Shown here: positions 40,244 through 62,179 of the stretch, piece by piece
Layout of the letters: each line of letters starts with the position of its first letter
Numbering within the stretch: position 1 is the first letter of the stretch
Source: Oscillospiraceae bacterium
Lineage (GTDB): Bacteria; Bacillota; Clostridia; Oscillospirales; Oscillospiraceae
Assembly (NCBI GenBank): GCA_902795345.1
Contig: CADBKO010000013.1
Span: forward strand, 30,884 to 94,883
DNA: 64,000 bases
Direction of reading: 5' to 3'
Program-made: the position numbers and the translations under genes
The notes under the pieces: model-generated
Told to the model about the DNA's origin: nothing
The model's database searches: none
What the model saw: the letters and a program-made list of their open reading frames with translations, nothing else

Positions 40244-41530
40244 TTACGCGGGGAACATGCTGTCCCGGGTGGAGGGGGTCTTCCGCTCGTAGATGGGGAA
40301 GCGGCGGCAAAGCTCCGCGACCCGGTTCATGACCTCCTTGCGGTTGGCGGCGAAGTCCAGGGTGGCCTTGCAGATGAGCTCGCCCACTTCCCGCATCTCC
40401 GGCTCCTTGAAGCCGCGGCTGGTGACGGCGGGAGAACCCAGGCGCAGGCCGCTGGACTCCTTGGGCGGACGGGGATCGGCGGGAACGGCATTCTTGTTGG
40501 CTGTAATGTGGACGCTGTCCAGACGCGTCTCCAGCTCCTTGCCGCTGATGTCCATTTTGCGGAGGTCCACCAGCATCAGGTGGTTGTCCGTGCCGCCGGA
40601 AACGAGATCCAGACCGCCTTCCATCAGGCTTTCGGCCAGGGTGGCGGCGTTGGCAACGATCTGGTGCTGATAGGCCTTGAAATCCGGGCGCAGGGCTTCG
40701 CCCAGGGCCACGGCCTTTGCGGCGATGATGTGCATGAGGGGGCCGCCCTGCACGCCGGGGAAGATGGCGCTGTTGATCTTCCGGGCGATGTCGGCGTCGT
40801 TGGTGAGGATGATGCCGCCCCGGGGACCGCGCATGGTCTTATGGGTGGTGGTGGTGACCACGTCGGCATAGGGAACGGGAGAGGGGTGCTCCCCTGCCGC
40901 CACCAGGCCCGCGATGTGGGCCATGTCCACCATCAGATATGCGCCCACCTCTTTGGCGATCTCGCTGAAGATGGCATAGTCGATGACCCGGGGATAGGCG
41001 GAAGCGCCGGCAATGATCATTTTGGGATGGTTGGCCAAAGCCAGTTCCCGGACCTGGTCGTAGTCGATGCGGCCCGTGGCGGGATCCAGACCATAGGAGA
41101 CGATGTGATAATTCTTTCCGGAGAAGTTGGCCGCGCTGCCGTGTGTCAGGTGGCCGCCGTTATCCAGGGACATGCCCATGACGGTATCCCCCGGCTTGCA
41201 GAGGGCCAGGTAGACGGCATAGTTGGCCTGAGAGCCGCTGTGGGCCTGCACGTTTGCATAGTGGGCGTCGAAGATGATCTTGGCCCGCTCGATGCAGATA
41301 TTCTCCGCCATGTCCACATACTCGCAACCGCCGTAAAACCGGCGTCCGGGATAACCTTCGGCATACTTGTTGGTCAGTACGGAGCCCATGACGGCCATGA
41401 CCTCCTGACTGACCAGGTTCTCCGAGGCGATCAGCTCCAGATTGTTGCGCTGCCGGTCCAGCTCCAGAGAAAGCACCTTTGCGATCTCGGGATCATAAGC
41501 GCTGATATACTGCATACTCTCTTCTACCAT
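40244..41530 (-). CDS. glyA: Serine hydroxymethyltransferase
   Basis: PLP enzyme that interconverts serine and glycine while charging tetrahydrofolate with one-carbon units. Motifs: [26 protein letters not shown], and [14 protein letters not shown] with the PLP-binding lysine. ATG 41530 (MVEESM) has a GGAGG box six bases upstream; an ATG at 41536 touches that box. 428 residues. Controlled by a glycine riboswitch and a strong promoter upstream. Confidence 0.95.
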
Positions 41531-41555
41531 GTCCATCCTCCTGTCAATAAATAAA

Positions 41556-41571
41556 GCCGCCTGAAGGCAGC
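41556..41571 (-). terminator. Possible riboswitch-controlled terminator before glyA
   Basis: Hairpin GCTGCC / GGCGGC with loop TTCA, followed on the glyA strand by TTTATTTATT. It lies between the glycine aptamer and the glyA ribosome-binding site. Confidence 0.6.
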
Positions 41572-41617
41572 TCCGAAAAAGCGCAGAGACGGCACCGGCC
41601 CCAGCCGGAACGCGCCC

Positions 41618-41712
41618 CTCTGTCCTTTTGCCTGAGAGATTCGGGCTGCATAGCCCTTGCACCTTCGGCACTCATGCATGGATGAGCTTCTCCAGAGTTT
41701 CCTCCACTGCCG
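41618..41712 (-). promoter_or_regulatory. Glycine riboswitch upstream of glyA
   Basis: Minus-strand leader contains the conserved core elements of the glycine (gcvT) aptamer: CTCTGGAGA, GTGCCGAAGGTGCAAG, and ATCTCTCAGGCAAAAGGACA. I can see one aptamer rather than the usual tandem pair. Glycine binding is expected to alter glyA expression; direction cannot be told by eye. Confidence 0.9.
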
Positions 41713-41886: not shown

Positions 41887-41915
41887 TTGACTTCTGTTCA
41901 AGCAAGTCTTATTCT
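41887..41915 (+). promoter_or_regulatory. Promoter for the MBL/HD-GYP/FecR/cyclase operon
   Basis: -35 TTGACT (41887-41892), 17-base spacer, -10 TATTCT (41910-41915), about 40 bases before the first gene of the operon. Confidence 0.65.
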
Positions 41916-41956
41916 ATTTATATGGATAAATATAGACATTGAAAGCTGGTGACTTC

Positions 41957-42757
41957 TTGGATACCGTAACGATCCTCGGCACCAGAGGTTCCATACCCAG
42001 AGCGGGGCAGGAATTCACCCGCTACGGGGGAGATACGATCTGTGTTCTCGTGGAGCTGGCCGGAGAAACTATCCTGCTGGATGCCGGTACCGGGCTTTTG
42101 AACTGCGACATTCCCGGAGGGACCGAGGAAAAGCCCATCCCGCTGCTGCTGTCCCATTTCCACGCGGATCATCTGCTGGGGCTGCCGATGGCCCCCCTTC
42201 TGATGGACACGGACAATCACATCGACATCTATGCCCAAAGCCGGTTCGGCATGGACGCGGAAGAACGCATTGAGCGGCTTCTTTCCCCTCCCATCTGGCC
42301 TGTCACGCTGGAGCTGCTTCCCGCCTGGATCAGATACAGGGAATTGCCGAATACGCTGCAGCTCGGCGCTGTGACGGTGGAGACCATGGAAGGCTGCCAC
42401 CCCGACGGCGTTACTCTGATGAAGCTCCGGGGAGGCGGAAAAAGCATCGTTTTTCTGACGGACTGCACCTATACGGAGGACATCTTCCCCAAGCTGACGG
42501 GTTTTGCCCGGGGCTGCGACCTGATGCTGTGCGACGGGCAGTATTCCGACGAAGAGTGGAAAACACGCAGCGCTTTCGGCCACAACACCTGGAAGCGCGC
42601 TGCCCAATTGGGCCTGGCCTGCGGCGCGAAAAAGATACGAATCATCCACCATGATCCATTCCACACGGACCGTATGCTGGAGGAGGCTGAGCCCCAGCTT
42701 TCCGCCCTCCATCCCGACTGCAGCTTTGCGCTTGCCCGAGAGGAGATCAAATTATGA
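41957..42757 (+). CDS. MBL-fold metallo-hydrolase
   Basis: Metallo-beta-lactamase fold protein related to the RNase Z/phosphodiesterase group. Zinc motif HFHADHLLG, an Asp in LTDCTY and a late His pair IIHHDPFH supply metal ligands. Start is uncertain: TTG 41957 gives DTVTILGTRGSIPR, the usual family opening; TTG 41939 adds six residues. The stop overlaps the HD-GYP gene as ATGA, so it may be the first gene of the signalling operon. With a cyclase in the operon, a cyclic-nucleotide phosphodiesterase is a plausible guess, but unproven. Confidence 0.78.
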   Translation: MDTVTILGTRGSIPRAGQEFTRYGGDTICVLVELAGETILLDAGTGLLNCDIPGGTEEKPIPLLLSHFHADHLLGLPMAPLLMDTDNHIDIYAQSRFGMDAEERIERLLSPPIWPVTLELLPAWIRYRELPNTLQLGAVTVETMEGCHPDGVTLMKLRGGGKSIVFLTDCTYTEDIFPKLTGFARGCDLMLCDGQYSDEEWKTRSAFGHNTWKRAAQLGLACGAKKIRIIHHDPFHTDRMLEEAEPQLSALHPDCSFALAREEIKL

Positions 42758-44205
42758 CGCCTGAACAGATCCGACAGTTTTTGAGCATGTGCCTTTCCCT
42801 CTCCTCCGAACGGGACCGGGAAAAGCTCCTCTCCCAGATCCTGGATACCGCTATGGACCTGTCCAATTGCGACGCGGGCACCCTTTACCTCCTGGAGGAC
42901 GACGGACTTCATTTCTGCCGTATGGTGACCCGTTCCATGAACATCCGGCAGGGCGGCCATGCCGACCCCATTACCCTGCCGCCGGTGCCTATGGAACCCA
43001 GCTACGTCTGCTCCTGGGTCGTGCTCCACAACGAGCCCATCAACGTTGCCGACGTGCACACGGACACCCGATTCAATTTCTCCGGCTCCGCCAAGTACGA
43101 CGAGATGACCGGCTACTGCACCAAGACCATGCTGGTGGTCCCCTTGGCCAACGACCGGGGCGACCTCATCGGCGCGATGCAGCTTATCAACGCCCTGGAT
43201 AAAGACGGGGTCACGATCCCCTTTGCTTCCAGTGTGGAACTGCTGGTCATGGCAATCTCCTCCCAGGCGGCCATCAGCCTCACCAATATGCTCTATGCCG
43301 AGCAGATCACTTCCCTGCTGGATTCCCTGGTAGGGGCGCTCTCCGCCGCCATCGACGAACGCACACCTTATAATGCGAACCACACCCGCAATATGGTGAA
43401 GTATGCGACGCGCTTTCTGGACTGGCTGGACAAGCAGGACAGCGAGAAGCGATTCGACGGCGACAAAAAGCGCACCTTCCTTCTGAGCGTCTGGCTCCAT
43501 GACGTGGGCAAGCTGGTAGTACCGCTGGAGGTCATGGACAAGGAAAGCCGGCTGGGACCTGCCCTGGATGGCATCCAGCAGCGCTTCCGCGCCATGGCAC
43601 TGCTGGATCGCATTTCTTTGCTGGAAGGCAGGATTTCCCGGGAAGAAGCGGAGAAGCGCAGCACCATCCGGGAGACCGGCATGGACCTGATCGAGCGGGT
43701 GAACAAGGCCGGGTTCGTGACGGACGAAGATCTTGCGCGGATCGACACTCTGGCCGCCCGGGAATACATCGACGAGAACGGTAAGACCCAGACCTGGCTC
43801 ACGGAGGAGGAACGGAAAGACCTCTCCGTCCGCAAGGGCACTCTGACCCCGGAGGAGCGCGCCATCATGGAAAGCCACGCCTCCGTGACCGCCCGCATCC
43901 TGGGCCACGTCACCTTCCCGAAAATCTATGCGCAGGTCCCCAAGTGGGCCAGCGCCCACCACGAATATCTCAACGGGAAGGGCTACCCCGATCATCTCAC
44001 TGCCGAGGACATTCCCTGGGAAGTGCGTCTATTGACCATCCTGGATGTGTTTGACGCGCTGACGGCCCGGGACCGCCCCTATAAGCCCCCCATGCCTGCG
44101 GAAAAGGCCCTGGGCATCCTCCACAGCATGGTGGAAGAAGGCAGCCTGGACGGCGACATCCTGGCGCTCTACGAAGCCAGCAAGGCTTGGGAGGAAAGCG
44201 CATGA
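42754..44205 (+). CDS. GAF domain and HD-GYP phosphohydrolase protein
   Basis: Cytoplasmic signalling protein. A GAF domain (about 1-170: NCDAGTLYLLEDDGLHFCRM, then MLVVPLANDRGDLIGAMQLIN) is followed by an HD-GYP type domain: HD in LHDVGKLVVP (His249, Asp250), HHEYLNGKGYP (His402, His403) and a late RPYKPPMPAEKA. The spacing between the HD and HHE motifs is about 150 residues against roughly 60 in usual HD-GYP domains, so about 90 residues are inserted. HD-GYP proteins usually break down c-di-GMP; this is not certain here given the insertion. Gene overlaps both neighbours. Confidence 0.82.
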   Translation: MTPEQIRQFLSMCLSLSSERDREKLLSQILDTAMDLSNCDAGTLYLLEDDGLHFCRMVTRSMNIRQGGHADPITLPPVPMEPSYVCSWVVLHNEPINVADVHTDTRFNFSGSAKYDEMTGYCTKTMLVVPLANDRGDLIGAMQLINALDKDGVTIPFASSVELLVMAISSQAAISLTNMLYAEQITSLLDSLVGALSAAIDERTPYNANHTRNMVKYATRFLDWLDKQDSEKRFDGDKKRTFLLSVWLHDVGKLVVPLEVMDKESRLGPALDGIQQRFRAMALLDRISLLEGRISREEAEKRSTIRETGMDLIERVNKAGFVTDEDLARIDTLAAREYIDENGKTQTWLTEEERKDLSVRKGTLTPEERAIMESHASVTARILGHVTFPKIYAQVPKWASAHHEYLNGKGYPDHLTAEDIPWEVRLLTILDVFDALTARDRPYKPPMPAEKALGILHSMVEEGSLDGDILALYEASKAWEESA

Positions 44206-45437
44206 AGAGACTGCTCGCTCTCCTTTTTGCCCTGGTCCTCCTGCTGGGCCTGGCCGCTCCGGCTTCAGCGGCGAAGGCGAAAGCTGTCGTCCTGCGCCTT
44301 CAGGTCGCGGAGGGCAGCGTTTATGTGCGGGATGCGGCGGGAGTCCCCGTCACCTATACCAAGGACATGCGCCTTTACAGCGGCTATTCCGTTTCAACCG
44401 ACGACAAGAGCAGCGCTTATATCCTCCTGGACGAGGATAAAGCCGTCAAGCTGGACCGAAATACCACTGTGGCGATCAAAAAATCCGGCAAGAAGCTCCA
44501 GGTCAAGCTGAAAGCAGGACAGCTCTTTTTCAATGTGACGGCGCCTCTGAACAGCGGCGAAGCCCTGGAGATCCGCACCAGCTCCATGATCGTGGGCGTA
44601 CGCGGCTCCTCCGGCATCGTCAGCCTGCGGGAAGTGATCTTCATTACCGGCCACGGCGTCGTGACCTGCGGCGGACGGCAGTATGCCATCGCCGGCGGTG
44701 AAGCCTTCCGGCCCAGGTCAGGCGTCCATCCTGCGGGCGTCCCTGCCCTCCCCGCTCTCTGTCTGAAAGAGATCCGGGACGATGCGCGGCTTCAGTCCCG
44801 CATCCGGGAGGAAGGCGTCTATGATCCCGAATTGCTGATCGCGGCTATTCCGGCTGCGGAGCTGCGGGAGGAAGAAGAATGGGACGAGGCCGAAGCAGCC
44901 ATGATCCCGCTCCCTGCCGCTGACTCCGTAGAACCGGCTTTCCCACAGGGTTCTGCCGAACCAGCTTCCTACACCATCACCTGGAAGGACGACGAAGGAA
45001 ACGTCATTGACACCACATCCGTTGCCGCCGGGGAAACGCCGAGCCACGAAGCGCCGGTCAAGGAAGCCACCGACAAGGCAAGCTACGCCTTTGTGGGCTG
45101 GGATCGGCAGCCTGCCCCCGCCACGGAGGACACGACTTATACGGCGGTATTTGAAGCGACCTATGATTTCACCGCCATCATTCCCCCGGGAACGGCCAAC
45201 ATGCCCTATCAGATCTACTACAACACGTCGGGCAACACCCCCATCACCACCGCCAAGGAGGGGGAGGAATTCACCTTCTATCTGACCAGCCCCAATAGCG
45301 ACGTTATGGCATATTCCATCCGGCTGAACGGCGAGCTGCTCGGTGAGGAAAGCGTCTATTTCAGCAAAGAATCCGACGCCCTCGTCTGCACCTTTACCGT
45401 TCCGAAGGATCCCACCATCGAGATCGTGCCCGGCTGA
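44202..45437 (+). CDS. Secreted FecR-domain protein 1 with one InlB-type repeat
   Basis: A 411-residue protein with a signal peptide (residues 1-23, LALLFALVLLLGLAAPASA), then a FecR-like domain (about 25-150: GSVYVRDAAGVPV, SGYSVSTDDKSSAYILLDED, VGVRGSSGIVSLREV), a linker, and one InlB/Listeria-Bacteroides type repeat (YTITWKDDEGNVIDT to YTAVFEAT). The C-terminal 90 residues are unlike the other two paralogues. The FecR domain normally relays a signal to an anti-sigma or transport partner; here no FecI-type sigma is present. ATG overlaps the HD-GYP stop. Confidence 0.8.
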   Translation: MKRLLALLFALVLLLGLAAPASAAKAKAVVLRLQVAEGSVYVRDAAGVPVTYTKDMRLYSGYSVSTDDKSSAYILLDEDKAVKLDRNTTVAIKKSGKKLQVKLKAGQLFFNVTAPLNSGEALEIRTSSMIVGVRGSSGIVSLREVIFITGHGVVTCGGRQYAIAGGEAFRPRSGVHPAGVPALPALCLKEIRDDARLQSRIREEGVYDPELLIAAIPAAELREEEEWDEAEAAMIPLPAADSVEPAFPQGSAEPASYTITWKDDEGNVIDTTSVAAGETPSHEAPVKEATDKASYAFVGWDRQPAPATEDTTYTAVFEATYDFTAIIPPGTANMPYQIYYNTSGNTPITTAKEGEEFTFYLTSPNSDVMAYSIRLNGELLGEESVYFSKESDALVCTFTVPKDPTIEIVPG

Positions 45438-45471
45438 TCTGCTGACCCGTTTTTAAATGGAGGAATCCACT

Positions 45472-48400
45472 ATGAGAAAGCTCCTGACATTCCTGCTGTC
45501 CCTGCTCCTGCTCCTGCTCCTGGGGCTGGCCATGTCCGCTTCCGCCGCCACAGCCAAGGCGGTCACCATGCGCGTGGAGCTGGTGGAGGGCAGCGTCACC
45601 ATCAAGGATGCCAGCGGCGTCACCCTGGAATTCTTTGAAGGCATGCAGCTCCACAGCGGATACAGCGTCGAGACAGGCGACGACAGCTCCGCCTATATCA
45701 GCCTGGACGACGACAAGGCCATCAGACTGGATTGGGGCACCGCAGTTACCATCAAGAAATCCGGGCGGAAGCTCCAGGTCAAGCTGAAAGCCGGTCAGAT
45801 CGTCTTCAACGTGACCACGCCTCTGGCGGGAGACGAAGCCCTGGAGATCCGCACCAGCACTATGATCACCGGCGTGCGCGGTTCCTCCGGCATCGTGAGT
45901 CTGCGCGAGGTGCAGTATATCACCGGGCATGGTGTGGTTTATAATGCCTCTTCCCTTTCCGATGGCGCTAACTCCGCCCCGCCGATCCCCATCCGGGGCG
46001 GCCAGCGGTACGAGGCGGAGAGTGATTCCGCCGAAGCTCTGGCCCTGGAGGACATTCCCTCTGTCTATCTGGAGGAAGCGGCCGGCAATGAGCAGCTACA
46101 GCAGGACATCTCCGAAGAAGGCAACTTTGACGTGGAGGACTTGGTCGCGGCAATCCCCGAAAAGCAGGCGGAAGAAGCCGCCCGGCGTGAAGAGACCAAG
46201 GAAACGGCTCAGCGTGAGGGGGCCAAGGAAACCGAAACGCTCCCGTCGGATACGCAGAATACGAATAGTATCGACCCGGCATTTAAGAGGGATGGATCCG
46301 ACGACGGGCAGAGTGCCGCCGGATCGAGCGCGCTGGATCGGCCTTTCATTCCAGAGAATCCCACGGTTCCCGATCTACCCGTGATCCCCGACGAACCGGA
46401 TGCGCCCGACGAACCGGATGAACCGATCATGTATACCATCACATGGAAGATCGGCGACGAAACCGTAACGCAGGAAGTGGAAGAGGGCGATATGCCCTCC
46501 TATTCCGGCGAAGTCCCCGCCACGGAAGCGGACGCGCAATACAACTATGCCTTTGCTGGTTGGACGCCGGACATTGTGGACGCGGCGGACGACGCGACCT
46601 ATACCGCCGCCTTCACGAAGACGCTTCGATCCTATACCATCACCTGGAAAAACGACGACGGCAGCGTGATCGACACTTCCTCCGTCCCTTACGGCACCGT
46701 CCCCACCCATGCCGATCCTTCCAAAGACGCCACTGCGGAATACTCTTACACTTTCGCGGGATGGTCCCCTGCTCCTGCTTCCGTCGCCGGAGAAGCGACG
46801 TACACCGCGACGTATTCACAAAACGCCAAAACATTTACTATCCAATGGATGAACGGCGAGACCGAATTCCGCAACGATACCTATGATTTCGGTATACCGG
46901 TGGCCGATCCGGGCATCCCCGAAAGGACCGGCTATACCTTCCTCGGATGGGACAATGAGATACCGGAAACCATGCCCGCTGAGGACCTCACCTTCCACGC
47001 AGTCTGGACCATCAGCAAATACAGTGTGACCTTTGTGGACGAGGACGGTTCCACGATCCTGCTGCCTGCCGCCGAGTATGAGTATGGCACTTCGGCTGAC
47101 GATATTGAAAAGCCGGACGATCCAACCAAGGAGGAGGACGACGATCACATCTATTCCTTCGCCGGATGGGACCCGATGCCGGTTAAGGTCACGGATACGG
47201 CGACGTACAAAGCCACGTATACCCCCACCGAGAAACTTACGCTGAGCATTTCCCTTACGCAAGGCGCGGAAATCACAATCATAACAGACACGCGAGAAGA
47301 CGGCGACTTCTCCGGGGAAGGCGTTAAATTCACTTCTGAGTCAGAAAAACTGACCATGAAGGTAGCGCCCGGAACTTGGGTAGAAGTGAATTGCGAAGCT
47401 GACGAATATTATACCTTCCTTGGCAGCGACTCTCTGTTGATCGATGGCGTTACCTGCGACAATGGAACGGTTTTCCAGGTAACGAAGGACGTGGAAATCA
47501 GCTCCTCTAAAGCCTATTACAGGATCACGAACGTGGAATCCTTGACCAACGGGCCGGAGATGGATTCTGTGATTGACAGCAATTTGACCATCGACAGCGC
47601 CGTTGCGATTTCCCTGAATCGCAATGTGACGATCATGCCTGGCGTCACGCTGAACATCAACAATGAAGGCGCCGTCCTTACCGTCGGCGAGGGCGTCACG
47701 CTTACCGTCAACGGCACCCTGACGAACACGGGGACCATCATCAACAACGGCACCATCGTCAACAACGGGACGATCAGCAATGACGGCACGATTACAAATA
47801 ACGGCACCATCCACAATTACAGCGATAACACGATCGTAAACAACGGCCAGCTGTTCAACATCGGCACCCTGAACAACGGCGCCGCCGGAGATACTCCCAT
47901 GGACGGAAGGATCGTGAATGGCTCTTCCGGCTTCCTGTCCAACTGCGGAACGCTCGCATCCCACACCAGCGGCAGCAGAATCGAAAACGCGGGCGTGTTC
48001 CTTCCCAAAGCCTCCAATGATACCGCTTCCATTTTCACATACGTCGGCGAGTTTGAAAACGCCGTTACAGGAGACGGCACGGTTGCCGAAAACGGAGGCC
48101 TCTGCAATGACGACGGCTCTGATGTGACCTGGTATCTGACCGACGCCGAAACTGCGGGCAAATATGTGCTGCATATCACCGGCGCGGGAGCGATCCAGGA
48201 TTACGAATATACTGGAACTGACGGCAGCGGCGGCACTGCCAATTATATCGTCGAATCGCCCTGGTGGGACATGAAGGACGATATCACGGAGCTGGACCTG
48301 GGGAATCAGATCACCGGCATCGGCGCTTTCGCCTTTGCGCACTCCAAAATCACTAGCTTGACCGTCCCGTCCGGCGTGAAATATCTCGGCAGCTATTCCT

Positions 48401-48924
48401 TCTATAAGAGCCCGGCTCTCAGCAGCCTTACCATCGGGTCCGGCGTGACGGAAATACGCGATCATGCCTTTTCTGATTGTGACAGTCTCACGACGCTGGT
48501 CGTGCCCGATAACGTGACCAGCATCGGCGCTTCTGCGTTTTATAGCGCGATGCTTCAAACGGTCGAAATCGGAAGCGGCGTAACAAACATCGGATATTGG
48601 GCCTTTGCATATTGCACCAATATGACTGTACTGACGCTTTCTGAAGGACTTGTTTCGATCAGCGATCACGCTTTTTTGAATTGCTGGAAGCTGCCTTCCG
48701 TGTCTATTCCGGCCTCTGTCCAGAACATAGACGATGAAGCGTTCTGCGATTGCAATCAGCTGAACAAAGCGAATTTCGTCAATCCACCCACCCTTGGTTC
48801 CGATGTATTTAAAAATACGCCTGAATCTTTCTGCATCTATTATCCGGATAATAATCCGAACTGGGTAATTACAGACGGCAAATGGAATGGTTACAAAGCT
48901 GAAACCTATCCAACTACCAAGTGA
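45472..48924 (+). CDS. Secreted FecR-domain protein 2 with InlB-type repeats, Asn-Gly-Thr segment and BspA leucine-rich repeats
   Basis: A 1150-residue secreted protein: signal peptide, FecR domain (about 25-150, nearly the same as in proteins 1 and 3), a charged Glu/Lys-rich linker and a Pro-Asp-Glu hinge, four InlB-type repeats (about 320-595), a region of imperfect NNGTI-type repeats predicted to stack as a beta-helix (about 740-800), and at the C-terminus five BspA-type leucine-rich repeats (YLGSYSFYKSPALSSLTIGS and others). No LPXTG or SLH anchor is seen. A surface or extracellular adhesin/sensor is likely. GGAGG precedes ATG 45472. Confidence 0.8.
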   Translation: MRKLLTFLLSLLLLLLLGLAMSASAATAKAVTMRVELVEGSVTIKDASGVTLEFFEGMQLHSGYSVETGDDSSAYISLDDDKAIRLDWGTAVTIKKSGRKLQVKLKAGQIVFNVTTPLAGDEALEIRTSTMITGVRGSSGIVSLREVQYITGHGVVYNASSLSDGANSAPPIPIRGGQRYEAESDSAEALALEDIPSVYLEEAAGNEQLQQDISEEGNFDVEDLVAAIPEKQAEEAARREETKETAQREGAKETETLPSDTQNTNSIDPAFKRDGSDDGQSAAGSSALDRPFIPENPTVPDLPVIPDEPDAPDEPDEPIMYTITWKIGDETVTQEVEEGDMPSYSGEVPATEADAQYNYAFAGWTPDIVDAADDATYTAAFTKTLRSYTITWKNDDGSVIDTSSVPYGTVPTHADPSKDATAEYSYTFAGWSPAPASVAGEATYTATYSQNAKTFTIQWMNGETEFRNDTYDFGIPVADPGIPERTGYTFLGWDNEIPETMPAEDLTFHAVWTISKYSVTFVDEDGSTILLPAAEYEYGTSADDIEKPDDPTKEEDDDHIYSFAGWDPMPVKVTDTATYKATYTPTEKLTLSISLTQGAEITIITDTREDGDFSGEGVKFTSESEKLTMKVAPGTWVEVNCEADEYYTFLGSDSLLIDGVTCDNGTVFQVTKDVEISSSKAYYRITNVESLTNGPEMDSVIDSNLTIDSAVAISLNRNVTIMPGVTLNINNEGAVLTVGEGVTLTVNGTLTNTGTIINNGTIVNNGTISNDGTITNNGTIHNYSDNTIVNNGQLFNIGTLNNGAAGDTPMDGRIVNGSSGFLSNCGTLASHTSGSRIENAGVFLPKASNDTASIFTYVGEFENAVTGDGTVAENGGLCNDDGSDVTWYLTDAETAGKYVLHITGAGAIQDYEYTGTDGSGGTANYIVESPWWDMKDDITELDLGNQITGIGAFAFAHSKITSLTVPSGVKYLGSYSFYKSPALSSLTIGSGVTEIRDHAFSDCDSLTTLVVPDNVTSIGASAFYSAMLQTVEIGSGVTNIGYWAFAYCTNMTVLTLSEGLVSISDHAFLNCWKLPSVSIPASVQNIDDEAFCDCNQLNKANFVNPPTLGSDVFKNTPESFCIYYPDNNPNWVITDGKWNGYKAETYPTTK

Positions 48925-48978
48925 TTTTATAAAGTATTCTATATCAGACTTAGTATGCACATATTCGGAGGCCTCTAT

Positions 48979-51900
48979 ATGAAAAGACTGCTTTCTGTTG
49001 CTCTTGCATTTCTCCTGATGCTGGGACTCGCCTCTCCCGCCCTTGCCGCCAAAGCCAAGGCGGTCACCATGCGTGTGGAGCTGGTGGAGGGCAGCGTCAC
49101 CATCAGGGACGCCGGCGGCGTCGCCCTCGACTACTTCGAGGGCATCCAGCTTTACAGCGGTTACAGCGTCGAGACCGGCGACGACAGCTGCGCCTATATA
49201 AGTCTGGACGAAGAAAAGGCCATCAAGCTGGCCATGAACACCGCTGTCTCCATCAAGAAATCCGGGCGCAAGCTCCAGGTCAAGCTGAAGGCCGGGGAGA
49301 TCGTGTTTAATGTGACCACGCCTCTGGCCGGGAACGAGACCCTGGAGATCCGCACCAGCACCATGATCACCGGCGTCCGCGGCTCCTCCGGCGGTGTGAA
49401 CGCCGAAACCGGGGAAATCTTTTACGGCACCGGACACGGGATCGTCTGGTTCCGTGAGACGGATCAAACAAGTTCCTTGTATGGGCTTTCCCAGCGCACG
49501 GAGCTTTGGGGCGGGCGGATCGTCAGCGTGAACTGGCCGGTAAAAGATATGGAGCTTTCGGATTTCTCCGCTCTCTTCCTGGGTGAAGTCGCAGAGAATC
49601 CTGACCTGCAGAATTCGTTGAAAATGGAAGGGAGATTTGATCCCCAGGATATGATCAACCTGCTTCCGTTAATCTTGGAAGCCGAAATAGCGGCTCGGGA
49701 GGAAGCGAAGTCCAGTGCGGTTCCCCTGCCCGAAAGCGCGACCGACAGCCCAGTCAACGGAGATAACGTCAATCCTGCCTTCAATAATAACTGGGATCTG
49801 CCCACCATCGTTACGCCTCCTCCCATCATCGATCTGGATGATTTCATCATTCCCGACGATCCCATGAACCCGGACGAACCGGAAACCACGGCTTACACCG
49901 TCACCTGGCAGGATGAAGACGGCACCATTCTGGAAAAAGACGAGAATGTTCCCGTCGGCACCGTCCCCGAGTTTAACGGCAGCGATCCCATCAAAGCCGC
50001 CGACGCGCAGTATACCTATACCTTTGCGGGATGGGATTCCATTCCCGCCGCAGTCACCGGCGACGCCATTTATACCGCGACCTACAAGGAAACGCCCAAG
50101 ACCTATACCGTCACCTGGAAGGTCGACGACGAAACGACCACCGTGAAGTATGATTACGGAAGCGTTATCGTACCCCCCGCCGACCCGACAAAGACCGGCT
50201 ATACCTTCACTGGCTGGGGCGGCAATGTGCCAGAGACCATGCCTGCTGAGAACCTCTCCTTCACCGCACAGTGGGATGTCAATACCTATACCGTCACCTG
50301 GAAGCAGAACGACGGCACCTTGATCAACACCACCACCGTTGCTTACGGTGAAGTCCCCACCCACGCAGCGCCCACGAAAGAAGCGGACGCGCAGTATACC
50401 TATACCTTCGCGGGATGGAATACCACCCCTGTCGCCGTCACCGGTAACGCCACCTACACCGCGACTTACAGCACGACCACGAACACCTATACCATCACCT
50501 GGAAGCAGGACGACGGCACCGTGATCAATACCACCACCGTCGCTTACGGCGATGTTCCCACCCATACCGATCCCACTAAAGCTGCCGACGCGCAGTTTAC
50601 CTACACCTTTGCGGGTTGGACCCCGGCTGTCGCTGACGTCACCGCCGACGCTACCTATACAGCGACTTATTCCTCCACGGTGAACAAGTACACCATCACC
50701 TGGAAAAATGCAAATGGTGAAGTCCTCAAGACAGATGAAAACGTGGAATACGGTACCCTTCCCTCCTACAACGGTACTATACCGACCAAAACTGATGATG
50801 ATACTTATACGTATGTCTTCAGTAATTGGTCCCCTGAAATCTCTGATGTTACGGGCGACGTCACCTATACGCCGCAGTTCACTCAGTATCGAATCATTGA
50901 TCAAGCGTTCTTCAATGATGAGTTTCCAATAATCAACGAACCTTCTGCAATAATCATAGATGATGTTATTGCGGAGAGCCCGGTTACCCAAAACGCAGAT
51001 CTGTATATCAAAGCCGGCAGCTCTCTAGCCCTCTATTCGAATATGACGGTGTCTGAAGGTGCTACGCTCATCATCGACGGTACTTTGACGATCGAGACGG
51101 GATTCAAGCTTACCAACAACGGCACCATCACCAATAATGGCTCCATCGAAAACCGCGGCACCGTCATCAACAATGGAACTATGAATAACTACAGTCCGGA
51201 TACGATTTCCAACTACGGTTATTTCCATAACCTCGGCACTTTGAACAACGGAGCGGATGCTGATACCCGCGGCTCGTTCATCAACGACGACGGAGGCTTC
51301 CTTGTAAACGCCGGAACTTTCTTGACCTCCGCCGGAAGCTCTTTTACCAATTATGCAATTCTTATAAAGACGATTCCTAACAACGACTCTTCTGTTTTCC
51401 AATGCGTCGGATCCTACGATAATATTGGAGTCGAAGCTTATGACGGCGGTTTCTGCGGAGCAAGCACATACGATGTTGTTTGGTATATGCTGCCTGAAGG
51501 AGAAGGCTATACGCTGGATCTGTACGGCGACGGCGATATTGCCGATTATGACAGTTCCACTGATATCAACCCACCCTGGTACAGCTACCGGAACAGCATC
51601 ACCGCCTTGGCCATCGGTTCCGGGGTCACCAAAATCGGAAATTACGCTTTTGCAGACATATCAGTTGCATCTGTGGAAATCCCTGACACCGTTGCTTCCA
51701 TCGGCAATTATGCATTTGAGTACAACGATGCGATCACCTCACTCCATCTGCCTTACAGCGTGACAAGCGTCGGGAGGTCTGCCTTTATGTCTTGTGCGTC
51801 TCTCACGACCGTAACAATCGACGATGGTTTGAAAATCATCGGAGAGAGCGCATTCAGCGGCTGCGGCAGCTTAACGACGGTTGCACTCCCAACTACCCTG

Positions 51901-52182
51901 ACGACGATCGATGGCTATGCATTTATGAGCACTGGTTTGACTGTAATTGCTATCCCAGAAAATGTTTCAAGCATTGGAGAAAGCGCGTTTAATCACTGCA
52001 ATGCGCTTACGGAAATTCATTTTTGGGGTAATCCGCCAAACATCCTTGGTGATTCCGCTCTGGGCAGTACCGAAGGGAAAACCATCTGGTATCCCGATAT
52101 TTACAGTGAAGGTTGGGAAACCGCTATGGAAGGCGGAGAGTATTATGGGTATGACTTGCGCGAAGAACGGTTTACAGATTAA
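48979..52182 (+). CDS. Secreted FecR-domain protein 3 with five InlB-type repeats, Asn-Gly-Thr segment and BspA leucine-rich repeats
   Basis: A 1067-residue paralogue of the preceding protein: signal peptide (LSVALAFLLMLGLASPALA), FecR domain, five InlB-type repeats (about 310-640; the third and fourth are nearly the same at DNA level), an NNGTI-type repeat segment (about 710-765), and BspA-type leucine-rich repeats at the end. The first 150 codons are almost the same in DNA as those of protein 2, so one arose from the other by recent duplication or gene conversion. GGAGG before ATG 48979. Confidence 0.8.
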   Translation: MKRLLSVALAFLLMLGLASPALAAKAKAVTMRVELVEGSVTIRDAGGVALDYFEGIQLYSGYSVETGDDSCAYISLDEEKAIKLAMNTAVSIKKSGRKLQVKLKAGEIVFNVTTPLAGNETLEIRTSTMITGVRGSSGGVNAETGEIFYGTGHGIVWFRETDQTSSLYGLSQRTELWGGRIVSVNWPVKDMELSDFSALFLGEVAENPDLQNSLKMEGRFDPQDMINLLPLILEAEIAAREEAKSSAVPLPESATDSPVNGDNVNPAFNNNWDLPTIVTPPPIIDLDDFIIPDDPMNPDEPETTAYTVTWQDEDGTILEKDENVPVGTVPEFNGSDPIKAADAQYTYTFAGWDSIPAAVTGDAIYTATYKETPKTYTVTWKVDDETTTVKYDYGSVIVPPADPTKTGYTFTGWGGNVPETMPAENLSFTAQWDVNTYTVTWKQNDGTLINTTTVAYGEVPTHAAPTKEADAQYTYTFAGWNTTPVAVTGNATYTATYSTTTNTYTITWKQDDGTVINTTTVAYGDVPTHTDPTKAADAQFTYTFAGWTPAVADVTADATYTATYSSTVNKYTITWKNANGEVLKTDENVEYGTLPSYNGTIPTKTDDDTYTYVFSNWSPEISDVTGDVTYTPQFTQYRIIDQAFFNDEFPIINEPSAIIIDDVIAESPVTQNADLYIKAGSSLALYSNMTVSEGATLIIDGTLTIETGFKLTNNGTITNNGSIENRGTVINNGTMNNYSPDTISNYGYFHNLGTLNNGADADTRGSFINDDGGFLVNAGTFLTSAGSSFTNYAILIKTIPNNDSSVFQCVGSYDNIGVEAYDGGFCGASTYDVVWYMLPEGEGYTLDLYGDGDIADYDSSTDINPPWYSYRNSITALAIGSGVTKIGNYAFADISVASVEIPDTVASIGNYAFEYNDAITSLHLPYSVTSVGRSAFMSCASLTTVTIDDGLKIIGESAFSGCGSLTTVALPTTLTTIDGYAFMSTGLTVIAIPENVSSIGESAFNHCNALTEIHFWGNPPNILGDSALGSTEGKTIWYPDIYSEGWETAMEGGEYYGYDLREERFTD

Positions 52183-52216
52183 TGGAATAATCTAGTCTAA
52201 AAGAAGACGCTGCAAT

Positions 52217-54040
52217 ATGAAACTCTCCTCTACACTCAAACGCATCGGCGCGGCGGTGCTGGCCGCAGCGATCCTCACCGCCATCGCGGCATTGGGGATA
52301 TTGGATCAGCCGGACTACACGGTCTCTGACCTTGTTTATCAGTCCCCCGCCGCCACGGACGGGCAGATCGTGGTCATCGGCATGGACCAGCGGGCGGTGG
52401 ACGCCTTCGGCCCCGTGCCCTGGCCCCGCACCGTGATCGCGCAAGCCATCGAATATCTGAACAAGGACCCGGAGCGAAAGCCCGCCGCCATCGGCATAGA
52501 TATTCTTTTCGTGGGCGACAGCGCGGACCCGGAGGCGGACGCCGCCCTGGTGGAAGCCGCCGAAAAGGGAGGCAACGTGCTCTTTGCCTCCGCGGGGACC
52601 TTTGGCAGCGGCCTGGTGAACACGGGCGACGACTTTTACATCGACACCAAGGCGGTGCTTGCCTGGGACCGGCCCTTTGACCAGCTGCGGGAGGTCTCCT
52701 ATACCGGGCACATCAACGCCATGGCGGACGCGGACAGCATCGTGCGCCACGCCATGCTCTATGTGGACGTGCCGGAGATCGGGCGTGTCTACTCCTTCTC
52801 CCGGACGCTTTACGAGATGTATGCCGAGCGTCACGGCATCCAGCCGACGGCTCTGCCGAAGACGGACGCCAAGGGCTTCTTCTACATTCCTTTCACCGCC
52901 GGACCCGGCAGCTACTATGACAGCGTCAGCGTTGCGGACCTGCTGGAAGGGACGGTCAGCCCCGGCTATTTCGCCGGGAAAGTCGTTCTGATCGGCCCCT
53001 ACGCCGCAGGCATGCAGGATGAATACCGCACCAGCATGGACCACGCCGCCCCCATGTACGGCATCGAGATCCAGGCGAACCTGATCGACGCCTACCGGAA
53101 TGGCTTCTATCCCCACGAGGTCCATGAAACTGCGCAGCTGGTGATCCTGTTCCTGGTCTCCGGCCTCTGCTTCTGGTGGCTGTGGGACCGGAAGGTGCTC
53201 CATGCCCTGCTGACCTGGCTGATTCTCTGCGCTCTTTGGGTGGGCCTCTGCTTCGGGCTATACCGGCTGGCAGGCCTTGTATTTCATGTGCTGTGGGTGC
53301 CCCTGGCTGCCACCCTCATCTTCATCGCCTCCGTTGCGCTGAACTATTTCCGGGCTTCTCTGGAAAAGCGGCATATCACGGACACCTTCGGGCGCTATGT
53401 GGACCCCGCCATCCTGAAGGAACTGCTGGTGAAGGGCGGCGCGGCGGAGGACCTGGGCGGCAAGACCTTTGAGATCGCGGTGCTGTTCGTGGATATCCGG
53501 GGCTTCACCACCATGAGCGAATCCCTGGACCCGCCCACCGTCGTGGAGATCATCAACCAATACCTGACCCTGACGACGGAGTGCATCATGCGTCACCACG
53601 GCACCCTGGACAAATTCGTGGGAGACTGCACCATGGCCTTCTGGAATGCTCCCCTGCCCCAGGAGGACCCCGTTTACCTGGCCTGCTGCGCCGCCATGGA
53701 CATGGTGGAGGGCTCCAAGGCTCTGGGCGCGCAGCTCCAGGAGCGCTTCGGGCGCACCGTCAGCTTCGGCGTCGGCGTCCACTTTGGCCCCGCCGTCGTG
53801 GGCAATATCGGCGCTCCCAAGCGGATGGACTACACCGCCATCGGCGACACCGTGAATACGGCTTCCCGGCTGGAATCCAATGCGCCGGGCAGCACGATCT
53901 ATATCTCCCGCGCGGTGGCCGACGCCCTGGGCGACCGGGCAAAGACCACCTCCCTCGGCGGCTCCGTCAAGCTCAAGGGCAAAGCCGAGGGGTTCGAGGT
54001 CCTCACACTGGATTCCCTGGAAATGGAAGAAAGGAAATAA
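52217..54040 (+). CDS. CHASE2-domain adenylate cyclase
   Basis: Membrane-bound class III nucleotide cyclase of 607 residues. N-terminal helix (about 10-28), an extracytoplasmic CHASE2 sensor domain (about 30-295), three to four transmembrane helices (about 305-385), then the catalytic domain. Metal-binding Asp426 (FVDIRGFTT) and Asp470 (KFVGD), the substrate-selecting pair Lys466 and Thr540 that points to ATP, and transition-state Asn547 and Arg551 (GDTVNTASR) are all in place, so activity as an adenylate cyclase is expected. It lies between the FecR genes and the NHL/SLH gene with tight spacing. CHASE2 cyclases often adjoin FecR-domain genes in other phyla. Confidence 0.88.
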   Translation: MKLSSTLKRIGAAVLAAAILTAIAALGILDQPDYTVSDLVYQSPAATDGQIVVIGMDQRAVDAFGPVPWPRTVIAQAIEYLNKDPERKPAAIGIDILFVGDSADPEADAALVEAAEKGGNVLFASAGTFGSGLVNTGDDFYIDTKAVLAWDRPFDQLREVSYTGHINAMADADSIVRHAMLYVDVPEIGRVYSFSRTLYEMYAERHGIQPTALPKTDAKGFFYIPFTAGPGSYYDSVSVADLLEGTVSPGYFAGKVVLIGPYAAGMQDEYRTSMDHAAPMYGIEIQANLIDAYRNGFYPHEVHETAQLVILFLVSGLCFWWLWDRKVLHALLTWLILCALWVGLCFGLYRLAGLVFHVLWVPLAATLIFIASVALNYFRASLEKRHITDTFGRYVDPAILKELLVKGGAAEDLGGKTFEIAVLFVDIRGFTTMSESLDPPTVVEIINQYLTLTTECIMRHHGTLDKFVGDCTMAFWNAPLPQEDPVYLACCAAMDMVEGSKALGAQLQERFGRTVSFGVGVHFGPAVVGNIGAPKRMDYTAIGDTVNTASRLESNAPGSTIYISRAVADALGDRAKTTSLGGSVKLKGKAEGFEVLTLDSLEMEERK

Positions 54041-54044
54041 AGCC

Positions 54045-55577
54045 ATGAAACGTAGTATTCTGATCCTGTTCCTGGTCGTCGCCCTGCTCACGGGCGCTGT
54101 CTCCGCCGCTTATATACCCACGGTGGAATATGACTCCCTGGATTTTGACGGCGGCATGATCTCCGGCATCTGGCTGGATGGCAGCACGCTCTATGCGACG
54201 GACATTCAAAACAAGGTCGTCTGGTGCATGGAAAACGGGGAGCCCGAAATCTTCGCCGGGGACCGAACCTACCGGGACATCAACGGCATCGTGATCGCCG
54301 ATTATTTCGACGCCGAAGTGGATAAGGCCCGCTTTATGGAGCCCTGGGCCATCGTCCCCTTCCTGGACGGCTGGGCCGTCAGCGACGCCAGCGCCAACAC
54401 GGTGCGTTATATCGTCGATGGCAAGGTGATGACCGCCTGCGGCGAAGAGAAGGGCTTTTCGGACGGATTCTGCACGGAAGCCCGCCTCTACCATCCCACG
54501 GGGCTTGCCGTGGACGACGATGGCCTTGCCTATATTGCGGACACCGGCAACGGCGCTATCCGCACCCTTGACACGGAGGGCAACGTGCGCACCGTTTACA
54601 CCGGTCTTGCGGAGCCCACGGGCCTCTGCTGGCATGACGGCGCCCTCTATATCGCAGAGACCGGGCGCAGCCGCATCCTTTGCCTGGAGGACGGCGAGCT
54701 GACGGTCCTGGCCGGGGACGGCGGCGAAAAGGATGAATACGGCGTCTATGGCTGCGGCTTTGCCGACGGGCCTGCCGCCTCTGCCCTCTTCGAGCATCCC
54801 CAGGGTCTCGCCGTGGCCGACGATGGCACTGTCTATATCGCGGACACCGGCAACGGCGCCATTCGTCGTCTGATGGACGGGCGGGTCAGCACCATGGCCG
54901 TCACCGCCGAGGACGACCTTTATCTGGCCTCTCCCCAGGGTATCCTGGTCAGCGGAAGGAATATCCTGGTTTCGGATTCTCTCACCGGCGCCATCCTGGA
55001 ATTCGATACCAGTATCCATGAGTTCCAGGACGTCTCCGAAACCGACTGGTTCGCCCCCTCCGTCCGGGAGGCGCTGATCCGCGGCATCATTTCCGGCGAG
55101 GATAACAACTTCCGTCCCGACGATCCCATGACCCGGGCGGACTTCGTGGAAATGCTGGCGAACCTGCAGCGCAGTCTGGACGGCAGCACGGTCATCAACG
55201 GTGGATTCCAGTTTACGGACATCACCGACGAAACTCCCTATGCCGCCATCGCCCGCTGGTCCGGAGATTTCGGCATCATCACCGGCAAGGATACCGGCGA
55301 ATTTGCCGGGGAGGAACCTATTCTGCGGCAGCAGATGGTGGCGATCCTCTACCGCTTCATCACCATCAGCGAGATGGACAACGTGCCCGTGGGAGACCTG
55401 GACGGCTTCAGCGATGGCTACACCACCTCCGCTTACGCGCAGGATGCCATGATCTGGGCTGTGGGCCGGGGCATCATCAACGGTTTCCCGGATGGGACGC
55501 TGGCCCCCTTCGGCGGCGCTACGAGGGCCCAGGCCGTGAAGATCATCGTTTATTTCATGGATATGTACGGGTTCTGA
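54045..55577 (+). CDS. NHL-repeat protein with three C-terminal SLH domains
   Basis: Secreted 510-residue cell-wall protein. Signal peptide (ILILFLVVALLTGAVSAA), a beta-propeller built from NHL-type blades (repeated HPTGLAVDDDGLAYIADTGN and HPQGLAVADDGTVYIADTGN), then three SLH domains from about residue 330 (DWFAPSVREALIRGIISG, FRPDDPMTRADF and similar) that bind secondary cell-wall polymer. Starts four bases after the cyclase stop. It may display a ligand-binding propeller on the wall for the neighbouring sensor. The reading frame remains open upstream of the ATG, but there it only shadows the cyclase. Confidence 0.85.
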   Translation: MKRSILILFLVVALLTGAVSAAYIPTVEYDSLDFDGGMISGIWLDGSTLYATDIQNKVVWCMENGEPEIFAGDRTYRDINGIVIADYFDAEVDKARFMEPWAIVPFLDGWAVSDASANTVRYIVDGKVMTACGEEKGFSDGFCTEARLYHPTGLAVDDDGLAYIADTGNGAIRTLDTEGNVRTVYTGLAEPTGLCWHDGALYIAETGRSRILCLEDGELTVLAGDGGEKDEYGVYGCGFADGPAASALFEHPQGLAVADDGTVYIADTGNGAIRRLMDGRVSTMAVTAEDDLYLASPQGILVSGRNILVSDSLTGAILEFDTSIHEFQDVSETDWFAPSVREALIRGIISGEDNNFRPDDPMTRADFVEMLANLQRSLDGSTVINGGFQFTDITDETPYAAIARWSGDFGIITGKDTGEFAGEEPILRQQMVAILYRFITISEMDNVPVGDLDGFSDGYTTSAYAQDAMIWAVGRGIINGFPDGTLAPFGGATRAQAVKIIVYFMDMYGF

Positions 55578-55585
55578 TTCCTATA

Positions 55586-55626
55586 AGAATACCGCCTGTC
55601 CGAGACCGGGCAGGCGGTATTCTTTT
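55586..55626 (+). terminator. Terminator of the FecR/cyclase operon
   Basis: Perfect 13-bp stem AGAATACCGCCTG / CAGGCGGTATTCT followed by TTT; may also serve the convergent cupin gene. Confidence 0.9.
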
Positions 55627-55634: not shown

Positions 55635-56759
55635 TTATTTCTTGGGCAGGTCGCCGCCGTCGTAGATGTATTTCCCGTCGCGGTAAACGATCTTTCCGTA
55701 ATCCCCGTTGGGATAGAAGGGCTCGAAATTGATGGGCGCGCCCAGGCGCTTGATCACGATGGGCCCATGCCACAAACCGGCGGGGATGCGCACCGCAGTG
55801 GGCTCCGTGATGGTGTATTTCTCCATATGCTCGGGATCTGGTCCCAGGGAGATCTCAATCTCCGCGTTGAACTCGAAGAACTTGGAGATGTCCGCGCCGG
55901 TGAAGAAGAGGTATTCTTCCACGGAATGGTGCATATGGGCTTCCCCGATGGTACATTCCTTCTGCACGATGTTGTAGAGATACCAGAGACGGCTCCCCTC
56001 CATGTCCTCATTGCCGCGGAAACCGCCGCGGGGGCTCACGAAGCGGCTGTCAGAATGAACGTCGGGCTTATAGGGATAAACGTATTTGTCGAATTTGCCG
56101 GTGCGGGGCTTCTTCGCCATCTCGTAGTAGGCAGTCAGCATATTCTGCTGCTGCGGCGCAGCTTCCTTCTTCGCATCCGCCTTCTTCTCTTCGGGCTGCT
56201 TCTCCTCCATGGCCTTCATGGCCTTGGAGAAACACTTGCCGCAGTAGATGCACTCCTTCGTGCGGTCCATGACGCAGCGACGGATGCCGGCGCCGTCATA
56301 GGTGAATTCTTCCCTGCCCTGCTCGTTGACCCGGCGGTTGATCTTGGACCAGTCGCCGTCCAGATATACGGCGGAGAATACGATGGGTTTTTCCGGATTG
56401 ATCTTCCGAAAATTCACGGGACAGTGATAGAGTTTCGGCGGGACCCGGATGATGGTGGGCTGGGTGATGGTGAACATCTCCATATTCTCCGCATCGTCGC
56501 CCAGCCACACGTCGATCTCGGAGTCGAACTCGAAGAAATTGGACATGTCCGCATTGGTGAATACCAGGTATTCATCCGCGCAGTGGTGGGTGTGGGGCAC
56601 TTCCATGGGCAGCGGCTTGTTGACGGCGGTCCAGTCCATATAGACATGGGCCTTCTCCATCATCGTGGTGCCGCGGAAGAAGCCGCGGGGCGCCACGAAG
56701 CCATACCAGGAATGATGCTCCTGGGGGATCGTGAAGATCAGATCGTCATATTTTCCCAT
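55635..56759 (-). CDS. Tandem-duplicated cupin protein with cysteine-rich linker
   Basis: A 374-residue protein of unknown function made from two similar cupin-like halves. Half 1 (about 20-140) and half 2 (about 237-350) share a PRGxFRG motif, an HxHH...E cluster (His56/58/59/Glu63 and His275/277/278/Glu282), an ADxSxFFEF segment, a TITxPT strand and a late His (112 and 331), all expected cupin metal ligands. Between them lies Cys162 plus CIYCGKC (170/173/176), which could bind an Fe-S cluster or zinc. ATG 56759 follows AAGGAGAG. It may process or bind an aromatic or sugar compound; the family is not one I can name. Confidence 0.7.
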   Translation of the reverse strand: MGKYDDLIFTIPQEHHSWYGFVAPRGFFRGTTMMEKAHVYMDWTAVNKPLPMEVPHTHHCADEYLVFTNADMSNFFEFDSEIDVWLGDDAENMEMFTITQPTIIRVPPKLYHCPVNFRKINPEKPIVFSAVYLDGDWSKINRRVNEQGREEFTYDGAGIRRCVMDRTKECIYCGKCFSKAMKAMEEKQPEEKKADAKKEAAPQQQNMLTAYYEMAKKPRTGKFDKYVYPYKPDVHSDSRFVSPRGGFRGNEDMEGSRLWYLYNIVQKECTIGEAHMHHSVEEYLFFTGADISKFFEFNAEIEISLGPDPEHMEKYTITEPTAVRIPAGLWHGPIVIKRLGAPINFEPFYPNGDYGKIVYRDGKYIYDGGDLPKK

Positions 56760-56797
56760 GATTCGCTCTCCTTTGCTGTATTTTTGTTCCTGTTTCA

Positions 56798-58194: not shown

Positions 58195-58206
58195 ATCAAA
58201 TACGGG

Positions 58207-58230: not shown

Positions 58231-58246
58231 ACGATCCATCCGGAAC

Positions 58247-62165: not shown

Positions 62166-62179
62166 GAGTTCAATTTCAA

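Follow-up and report, generated by a model that had tools for sequence, protein, structure and literature searches.

A gene cluster with a CHASE2 adenylate cyclase, a phosphodiesterase (PDE), a FecR protein and a TPR protein has been described in Campylobacterota, by bioinformatics only (PMC9239204). The operon analysed here lies in a window of 64,000 nucleotides, the whole stretch of DNA studied, from an uncultured gut-type clostridium. It shares with that cluster the grouping of a CHASE2 adenylate cyclase with a FecR envelope protein, and the cAMP-hydrolysing PDE described there is paralleled by a predicted one in the window. By contrast, the Campylobacterota host is diderm with an outer-membrane FecR, the text consulted makes no mention of a c-di-GMP enzyme, an NHL-SLH protein or LRR/InlB arms and does not say to which class the PDE belongs, and a TPR domain found no Pfam match in the seven proteins of the operon. 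In the BiofilmReg operon of Burkholderia, whose response regulator has a biofilm phenotype, the gene of a FecR-domain wall-binding protein (LysM-FecR) adjoins a CHASE2 sensor gene, as in the window, but the CHASE2 output is a histidine kinase with a response regulator and not a cyclase; the same work calls the CHASE2 ligand unknown (PMC5192318). In Sinorhizobium, the CHASE2 cyclases CyaD1, CyaD2 and CyaK, with NsrA and Clr, produce cAMP upon perception of an extracellular protein via an envelope protein. The likeness to the window is the CHASE2 cyclase with an envelope partner, although there the partner is a beta-barrel instead of a FecR protein and the receptor is the CRP-type Clr (PMC13001267).

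The initial annotation knew of no described system with such a set of genes; for a part of the set, the CHASE2-AC/PDE/FecR cluster of Campylobacterota is a described precedent. A literature search on CHASE2 in Clostridia, with subscription papers outside its scope, returned nothing on this gene set. As far as we found, the parts are known singly and the combined circuit of Clostridia is undescribed. To our knowledge, cAMP signalling in Clostridia has been little studied. We propose, with a probability of about 0.6, that the operon may be a relay from the surface to c-di-GMP via cAMP, in which FecR would act on the CHASE2 cyclase, cAMP on a GAF-HD-GYP protein, and a metallo-beta-lactamase-fold (MBL) protein would reset the signal.

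Organization of the operon and its envelope proteins

Seven genes follow one another on the forward strand (41939-55577) in the order MBL, GAF-HD-GYP, FecR1, FecR2, FecR3, CHASE2 cyclase and NHL-SLH, with junctions that are 4-base overlaps or gaps of 4-54 bases. The first two junctions, MBL/GAF-HD-GYP and GAF-HD-GYP/FecR1, are each an ATGA overlap, and the gaps measure 34 bases (FecR1-FecR2), 54 (FecR2-FecR3), 34 (FecR3-cyclase) and 4 (cyclase-NHL-SLH). Each domain of the seven proteins scored above its cut-off in the Pfam search, while NCBIfam gave no above-cut-off assignment for any of them. The tight spacing of seven same-strand genes closed by a hairpin, as the initial annotation had observed, was confirmed by gene calls, Pfam and the sequence. 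The intrinsic terminator (55587-55626, forward strand), read directly from the sequence, has a 15-bp stem with one G-U pair (55587-55601/55608-55622), a 6-base loop and TTTT, which bears out the terminator annotated at the operon end; this strong hairpin was absent from the list of the pattern scan. The same kind of scan over the intergenic gaps found no terminator-like site, so that internal terminators, which would have spoken against a single operon, were not detected there. The promoter proposed at 41887-41915 (forward strand) is a weak 9/12 match and not above chance; it is unsupported, since the region holds 6 such sites and 8.5 were expected in shuffles.

FecR1 (44202-45437) is a secreted FecR-domain protein without LRR (Pfam FecR 35.1 bits), with a signal peptide, MKRLLALLFALVLLLGLAAPASA, recognized by inspection. 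FecR2 (45472-48924) and FecR3 (48979-52182) are secreted as well, carry InlB-type repeats (Flg_new) and BspA leucine-rich repeats (LRR_5) in Pfam besides the FecR domain, and have a GGAGG sequence upstream, which in FecR2 is the ribosome-binding site 5' of the ATG. Both are paralogues, with 62% identity across the N-terminal 205 aa. All three proteins had been annotated as FecR proteins with ligand-binding repeats. The FecR domain was found in each of them, with 35-37 bits against a cut-off of 24, and the repeats hold for FecR2 and FecR3, but FecR1 has a single, sub-threshold one. By inspection, all three begin with a signal peptide and none has a cytoplasmic anti-sigma segment with a TM helix. 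The cassette therefore differs from FecI-FecR-FecA signalling in that its FecR proteins are secreted and that Pfam detected no FecI-type sigma factor and no TonB receptor among the seven genes. The last gene (54045-55577) encodes a secreted protein with an NHL-repeat propeller and three SLH domains (Pfam; signal peptide by inspection), predicted to be anchored to the cell wall.

Conservation of the cassette

The co-occurrence of CHASE2 and FecR, part of a search that the initial annotation had suggested, was evaluated in two genome sets, both including many incomplete MAGs. Among 300 genomes of the family, CHASE2 was present in 27, FecR in 27 and both in 19 (Fisher 7e-18, a test that ignores phylogeny). 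Among 299 genomes of the phylum the numbers were 36, 36 and 30 (2e-29, by the same phylogeny-blind test), and in 22 of the 30 carrying both the two genes lay at most 10 kb apart. It follows that relatives mostly keep CHASE2 and FecR as neighbouring genes and not at unrelated loci, and that the arrangement, thought at first to be unusual in clostridia, reflects a pairing of FecR with the CHASE2 cyclase that is near-obligate in Bacillota. No further copies of CHASE2 or FecR were found elsewhere in the genome assembly.

The neighbourhood was counted for 34 cyclase loci that had 6 kb or more of sequence to either side: GAF was found in 27, MBL in 26, FecR in 24 and NHL in 14. In the family genomes the counts, out of 19, were 13 for GAF, 13 for FecR, 12 for MBL and 12 for NHL. 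The membership of the cassette stays while the gene order is permuted, and some relatives are without FecR or NHL. Carriers that can be cultured include Butyrivibrio sp. AE3009 and Lachnospiraceae P6A3. At one locus (L131) FecR, InlB, LRR, SLH and NHL are fused in one protein of 1339 aa. Considering that the C-terminal parts of FecR2 and FecR3 resemble LRR adhesins, these secreted genes might merely adjoin signalling genes by chance; with the linkage repeated across genera, the phylum-wide co-occurrence and the gene fusions, we regard this as highly improbable. The cassette is genuinely conserved as a unit, and its reading as one functional unit in which FecR is tied to CHASE2 is supported by the co-occurrence and the recurring neighbourhoods. 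The distances of the cyclase and of its partner proteins were also correlated (r 0.55-0.67), which we take as background only because shared genome ancestry explains much of it.

The cyclase and the metallo-hydrolase

The CHASE2 adenylate cyclase (52217-54040) consists of a TM helix, an extracytoplasmic CHASE2 domain, three TM helices and a class III cyclase domain, by Pfam (CHASE2 144 bits, Guanylate_cyc 86 bits) and AF2 topology. Residues D426, K466, D470, T540, N547 and R551 were invariant in 105 homologues; they make up the two metal Asp, the base Lys and Thr and the transition-state Asn and Arg, that is, the Lys/Thr type (IIIb). The product is likely to be cAMP, judging from these residues, and the output first assigned to the operon is supported; the catalytic residues are all present, and the cyclase is intact rather than inactive. 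The PycC profiles of PADLOC also matched the cyclase domain (1.6e-29), which would suit a Pycsar-like anti-phage system with cCMP or cUMP as product. This match covers only the shared class III fold, however, the base-contacting residues are the adenylate-cyclase Lys/Thr in 105/105, and none of the five cassette proteins scanned with PADLOC matched an effector. We know of no CHASE2 sensor as part of a Pycsar system. On the active-site residues and the absent effector this reading was rejected, and we leave it next to no probability.

The first gene (41939-42757) encodes an MBL-fold metallo-hydrolase (Pfam PF12706, Lactamase_B_2), predicted to be a cAMP phosphodiesterase of atypical class-II type. 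With the described enzymes of this type, YhfI, Rv1339 and CpdA (PMC9117128, PMC9293780), it has in common the PF12706 fold, the [T/S]HxHxDH motif as SHFHADH and the metal ligands (H73, H75, D77, H78, H154, D175 and H237), almost invariant in 49 homologues. Its AF2 model (pLDDT 95) gave YhfI (6kns) as top Foldseek match, the closest structure, with RNase Z second and about equally close, and by sequence it matched YhfI best, along with BA1088, a relative of YhfI in Bacillus anthracis. It differs from those enzymes in the identity to YhfI, ~18% in the structural alignment, and in the score with the NCBIfam model of cyclic-nucleotide PDEs (NF041851), 45.9 bits, far under the cut-off of 400; because this cut-off was missed, we say that it would work like an atypical class-II PDE and not that it is a formal member.

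Taking into account that the RNase Z models outscored the PDE model, with 66.7 bits to its 45.9 and neither reaching its cut-off, and that RNase Z is the second structural match, the protein could be a nuclease or another phosphoesterase with no role in cAMP, and the cassette would then have no dedicated cAMP phosphodiesterase. We consider this unlikely: YhfI leads the structural matches, YhfI and BA1088 lead the sequence matches, and the genetic linkage to the cyclase and the fusion to GAF-GGDEF in relatives suit cyclic-nucleotide metabolism. YhfI prefers cAMP/cGMP (PMC9117128). A participation of the MBL protein in c-di-nucleotide turnover, which had been suggested, found no support and was rejected, since its closest characterised relatives act on mononucleotides; it is better read as a putative cyclic-mononucleotide phosphodiesterase that removes cAMP.

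The GAF-HD-GYP protein and the proposed relay

The second gene (42754-44205) encodes a protein with GAF and HD_5 domains (Pfam), predicted to be a cAMP-controlled c-di-GMP phosphodiesterase; the catalytic residues of its HD-GYP domain do not vary across 45 homologues. In Lcd1 of Leptospira (GAF-GGDEF) and Tlr0485 of Thermosynechococcus (GAF-HD-GYP), both activated by cAMP (reviewed in PMC8846402), a GAF domain is likewise joined to a c-di-GMP enzyme, and the window protein shares the domain layout of Tlr0485; it differs in that its binding of cAMP is only predicted and that its gene shares an operon with the cyclase. The GAF profiles of the cassette matched in the PDB almost exclusively cyclic-nucleotide GAFs (those of PDE5, CyaB2, PDE2, PDE6 and PDE10, all matched by the GAF-HD-GYP protein) and the PmGH GAF, whereas a control GAF of the same genome matched other GAFs. 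By its profile, the GAF of the window protein resembles the cyclic-nucleotide class. The NKFDE motif is not decisive in bacteria. Its N and F are kept in the HD-GYP-type GAF and its K and D lost, N, K, F and D are kept in the GGDEF-type GAF of relatives, and the motif is found in PmGH GAF too, for which we know of no cNMP ligand.

In relatives the HD-GYP slot is taken by GAF-GGDEF, by MBL-GAF-GGDEF (a fusion found at five loci) or, once, by cNMP_binding-GGDEF; this single case (L121) has an FGE...RRTATV motif and lies beside the cyclase. In the window and in relatives the GAF is joined to HD-GYP or GGDEF domains with intact active sites. The cyclase and the HD-GYP protein of a surface-sensing unit might nevertheless be parallel outputs, the GAF reading another ligand such as a metabolite and cAMP acting elsewhere, for example on a cNMP-antiporter. 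The loss of K and D in the window GAF would fit, and the genome also encodes a cNMP_binding-Na+/H+ antiporter (FGE...RRLST motif) whose presence tracks the system: CHASE2, FecR or both occur in 9/9 of the genomes with this antiporter. We find this the less probable arrangement, though one of some weight: the GAF is retained while its partner swaps between HD-GYP and GGDEF, a cAMP-type cNMP domain precedes GGDEF at L121, the GAF groups with cyclic-nucleotide GAFs and the control does not, and the antiporter is present in just 5 of 27 CHASE2 genomes. The role in c-di-nucleotide turnover that the initial annotation tentatively gave to HD-GYP is kept, but not its place as a parallel output; because of the domain swaps in relatives, HD-GYP is probably downstream of cAMP via its GAF.

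In the relay preferred here, the FecR domains, perhaps with the NHL-SLH protein, would contact CHASE2 from outside and set the activity of the cyclase, which would follow what the LRR/InlB arms and the NHL-SLH scaffold touch, whether surface, matrix or wall state. The cAMP made by the CHASE2 cyclase would be bound by the GAF, which would control HD-GYP, and hydrolysed by MBL to reset the signal. Considering that a HD-GYP so controlled would degrade c-di-GMP, the surface signal would alter the level of c-di-GMP and, with it, attachment or motility. If this is true, one operon holds FecR as a concrete candidate for the CHASE2 ligand, together with a phosphodiesterase and a receptor that are both dedicated to cAMP, the receptor feeding c-di-GMP. 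It would also offer an explanation of how Clostridia of the gut and rumen could convert surface contact into c-di-GMP changes. More tentatively, and at slightly less than even odds, CHASE2 may in general be a receptor for FecR-domain proteins and not for small molecules, the pair standing in Clostridia at the head of a single-operon relay with two messengers (from surface contact to cAMP and on to c-di-GMP) and an exchangeable second step, either degradation (GAF-HD-GYP) or synthesis (GAF-GGDEF, cNMP-GGDEF).

Among other cNMP proteins, an FNR-like one of this genome (L118) was set aside as cAMP receptor for its lack of the FGE...R motif. The cNMP-gated Na+/H+ antiporter may be a second target of cAMP; at one locus (L046) its gene comes after the cassette.

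Operon layout and conservation

The seven genes were found on the forward strand in the arrangement proposed by the initial annotation. They encode a metallo-hydrolase (MBL, PF12706; 41939-42757), a GAF-HD-GYP protein (42754-44205), three secreted FecR-domain proteins (FecR1, 44202-45437; FecR2, 45472-48924; FecR3, 48979-52182), a predicted adenylate cyclase with a CHASE2 domain (52217-54040), and a secreted NHL-repeat propeller with SLH domains, predicted to be wall-anchored (NHL-SLH, 54045-55577). The first two junctions are ATGA overlaps; from FecR1 to NHL-SLH the gaps measure 34, 54, 34, and 4 bases, and no terminator-like site was detected by scanning between the genes. A 15-bp hairpin and the T stretch after it (55587-55626) form the predicted terminator 3′ of NHL-SLH. 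The promoter proposed at 41887 is unproven, since it is a 9/12 match and such sites are rarer in the region than in shuffled sequences. On the left, the operon is bordered by a serine hydroxymethyltransferase gene on the opposite strand (within 40244-41671), preceded by a glycine riboswitch (41610-41705, minus strand, 60.5 bits). Right after the operon, 55635-56804 carries ORFs of 387 aa (minus strand) and 345 aa (plus strand), both without Pfam match; one more BspA-type LRR_5 protein is encoded shortly downstream (57112-58239, minus strand), and a TPP riboswitch (63.9 bits) lies at 62170-62273 (plus strand).

In the whole assembly, CHASE2 and FecR domains are confined to this operon. Co-occurrence of the two domains was evident in two samples. 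Of 300 family genomes, 27 had CHASE2, 27 had FecR, and 19 had the two together (Fisher 7e-18, phylogeny ignored); among 299 phylum genomes, spread over many families, the counts were 36, 36, and 30 (Fisher 2e-29, phylogeny ignored). The two mostly adjoin: they were on one contig less than 10 kb apart in 22 of the 30 phylum genomes having both, and in 20 of these the distance was 1.3-2.4 kb, which indicates neighbouring genes. Scanning species genomes yielded 80 loci with a related cyclase, from MAGs and isolates labelled Oscillospiraceae, Lachnospiraceae, Selenomonadaceae, and other Clostridia. Where the cyclase was flanked by 6 kb or more on each side (34 loci), same-strand neighbours were counted, giving GAF in 27, MBL in 26, FecR in 24, and NHL in 14. 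Cassette membership was kept while gene order varied, and no further family recurred comparably in the cyclase neighbourhoods. Fusions likewise support the cassette as a unit: one locus (L131) encodes a single 1339-aa protein with FecR, InlB repeats, LRR, SLH, and NHL, and five Clostridiales loci carry an MBL-GAF-GGDEF fusion. Linkage, co-occurrence, and fusions agree that the seven genes form a unit. Where Selenomonadaceae loci (diderm relatives) lack FecR, the cyclase is preceded by a conserved, secreted protein of roughly 300 aa that matches no Pfam family (e.g., L096:9036-9926), possibly a FecR substitute.

Enzymes and the output swap

Judging from conserved residues, the cyclase, HD-GYP, and MBL look active. 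Across 105 cyclases there is no variation in the two metal aspartates, in the Lys/Thr pair that contacts the base, or in the Asn and Arg; structurally, the closest matches are Cya2, CyaC, and CyaB, and the model runs from one TM helix through the CHASE2 domain and three TM helices to the cyclase domain. Every HD-GYP residue checked is the same in all 45 sequences compared, and the metal ligands of MBL hardly vary among 49. The best structural match of the MBL model (pLDDT 95) was YhfI, with RNase Z nearly equal. YhfI prefers cAMP/cGMP (PMC9117128), and another member of its group, Rv1339, breaks down cyclic mononucleotides but not c-di-GMP (PMC9293780). As no cut-off was reached in the NCBIfam search, we only infer cAMP as the MBL substrate.

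The domain swap at the output step is the most telling result of the analysis. GAF-HD-GYP is the form found in most relatives; its place is taken by GAF-GGDEF in seven loci (Selenomonadaceae and one Butyrivibrio) and by the MBL-GAF-GGDEF fusion in five, these counts being of ORFs, with some HD-GYP genomes entered twice. The GGEEF motif is intact in all GAF-GGDEF and MBL-GAF-GGDEF proteins. One locus (L121) has instead, 0.8 kb off the cyclase, a cNMP_binding-GGDEF protein bearing the cAMP-type motif FGEMTLFLQKRRTATV. The GAF, or the cNMP domain replacing it, thus stays constant while the output changes, as would be expected of a domain that senses the cyclase's messenger. Two loci (L139, L140) carry, beside MBL-FecR-cyclase-NHL-SLH, a GAF-ABC ATPase fusion with a large FtsX-type permease, possibly a further output. 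Fusions of cNMP_binding and DUF2225 also occur within cyclase loci (L121:12276-13589, L126:3085-4209).

The PDB matches of both GAF-type profiles were the GAFs of PDE5, CyaB2, PDE2, PDE6, PDE10, and PmGH, whereas a control GAF of the same genome matched methionine-sulfoxide-reductase-type GAFs. Among cAMP-activated GAF enzymes of c-di-GMP turnover are Lcd1 (GAF-GGDEF) and Tlr0485 (GAF-HD-GYP) (PMC8846402). Against the cAMP reading, K and D of the NKFDE motif are absent from the GAF of the HD-GYP type, which retains N and F.

Described clusters, probable working scheme, and a possible second target

Precedents for parts of the set have been described: a CHASE2-AC/PDE/FecR/TPR cluster in Campylobacterota (PMC9239204), an operon of CHASE2-kinase and FecR-LysM in Burkholderia (PMC5192318), and, in Sinorhizobium, CHASE2 cyclases that respond to a plant protein (PMC13001267). 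The literature searched yielded no account of a CHASE2-cyclase/FecR set that includes a c-di-GMP enzyme or an NHL-SLH protein, or of an HD-GYP/GGDEF output swap.

The working scheme probably leads from FecR/NHL-SLH through CHASE2, cAMP, and GAF-HD-GYP to c-di-GMP. The secreted FecR proteins (two with extended InlB/LRR arms), together with the NHL-SLH protein anchored in the wall, would act on the CHASE2 domain; cAMP would go up or down, MBL would hydrolyse it, and GAF-HD-GYP would turn its level into loss of c-di-GMP. The FecR-CHASE2 and cAMP-GAF links are those that we infer. As the genome encodes five GGDEF proteins, c-di-GMP is probably available as HD-GYP substrate.

The genome has two cNMP_binding proteins, one FNR-like and without cAMP motif, the other a Na+/H+ antiporter fusion with FGE...RRLST, which is possibly a second target of the system. 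Its gene (L145:2861-4789, contig 8) lies directly after a GGDEF gene (1356-2810). Relatives of this antiporter were found in 9 of the 300 family genomes, all nine having CHASE2 and/or FecR (union 35/300; hypergeometric 1.5e-9, phylogeny ignored), and at one relative's locus (L046) the antiporter gene comes after the NHL-SLH gene of a cassette.
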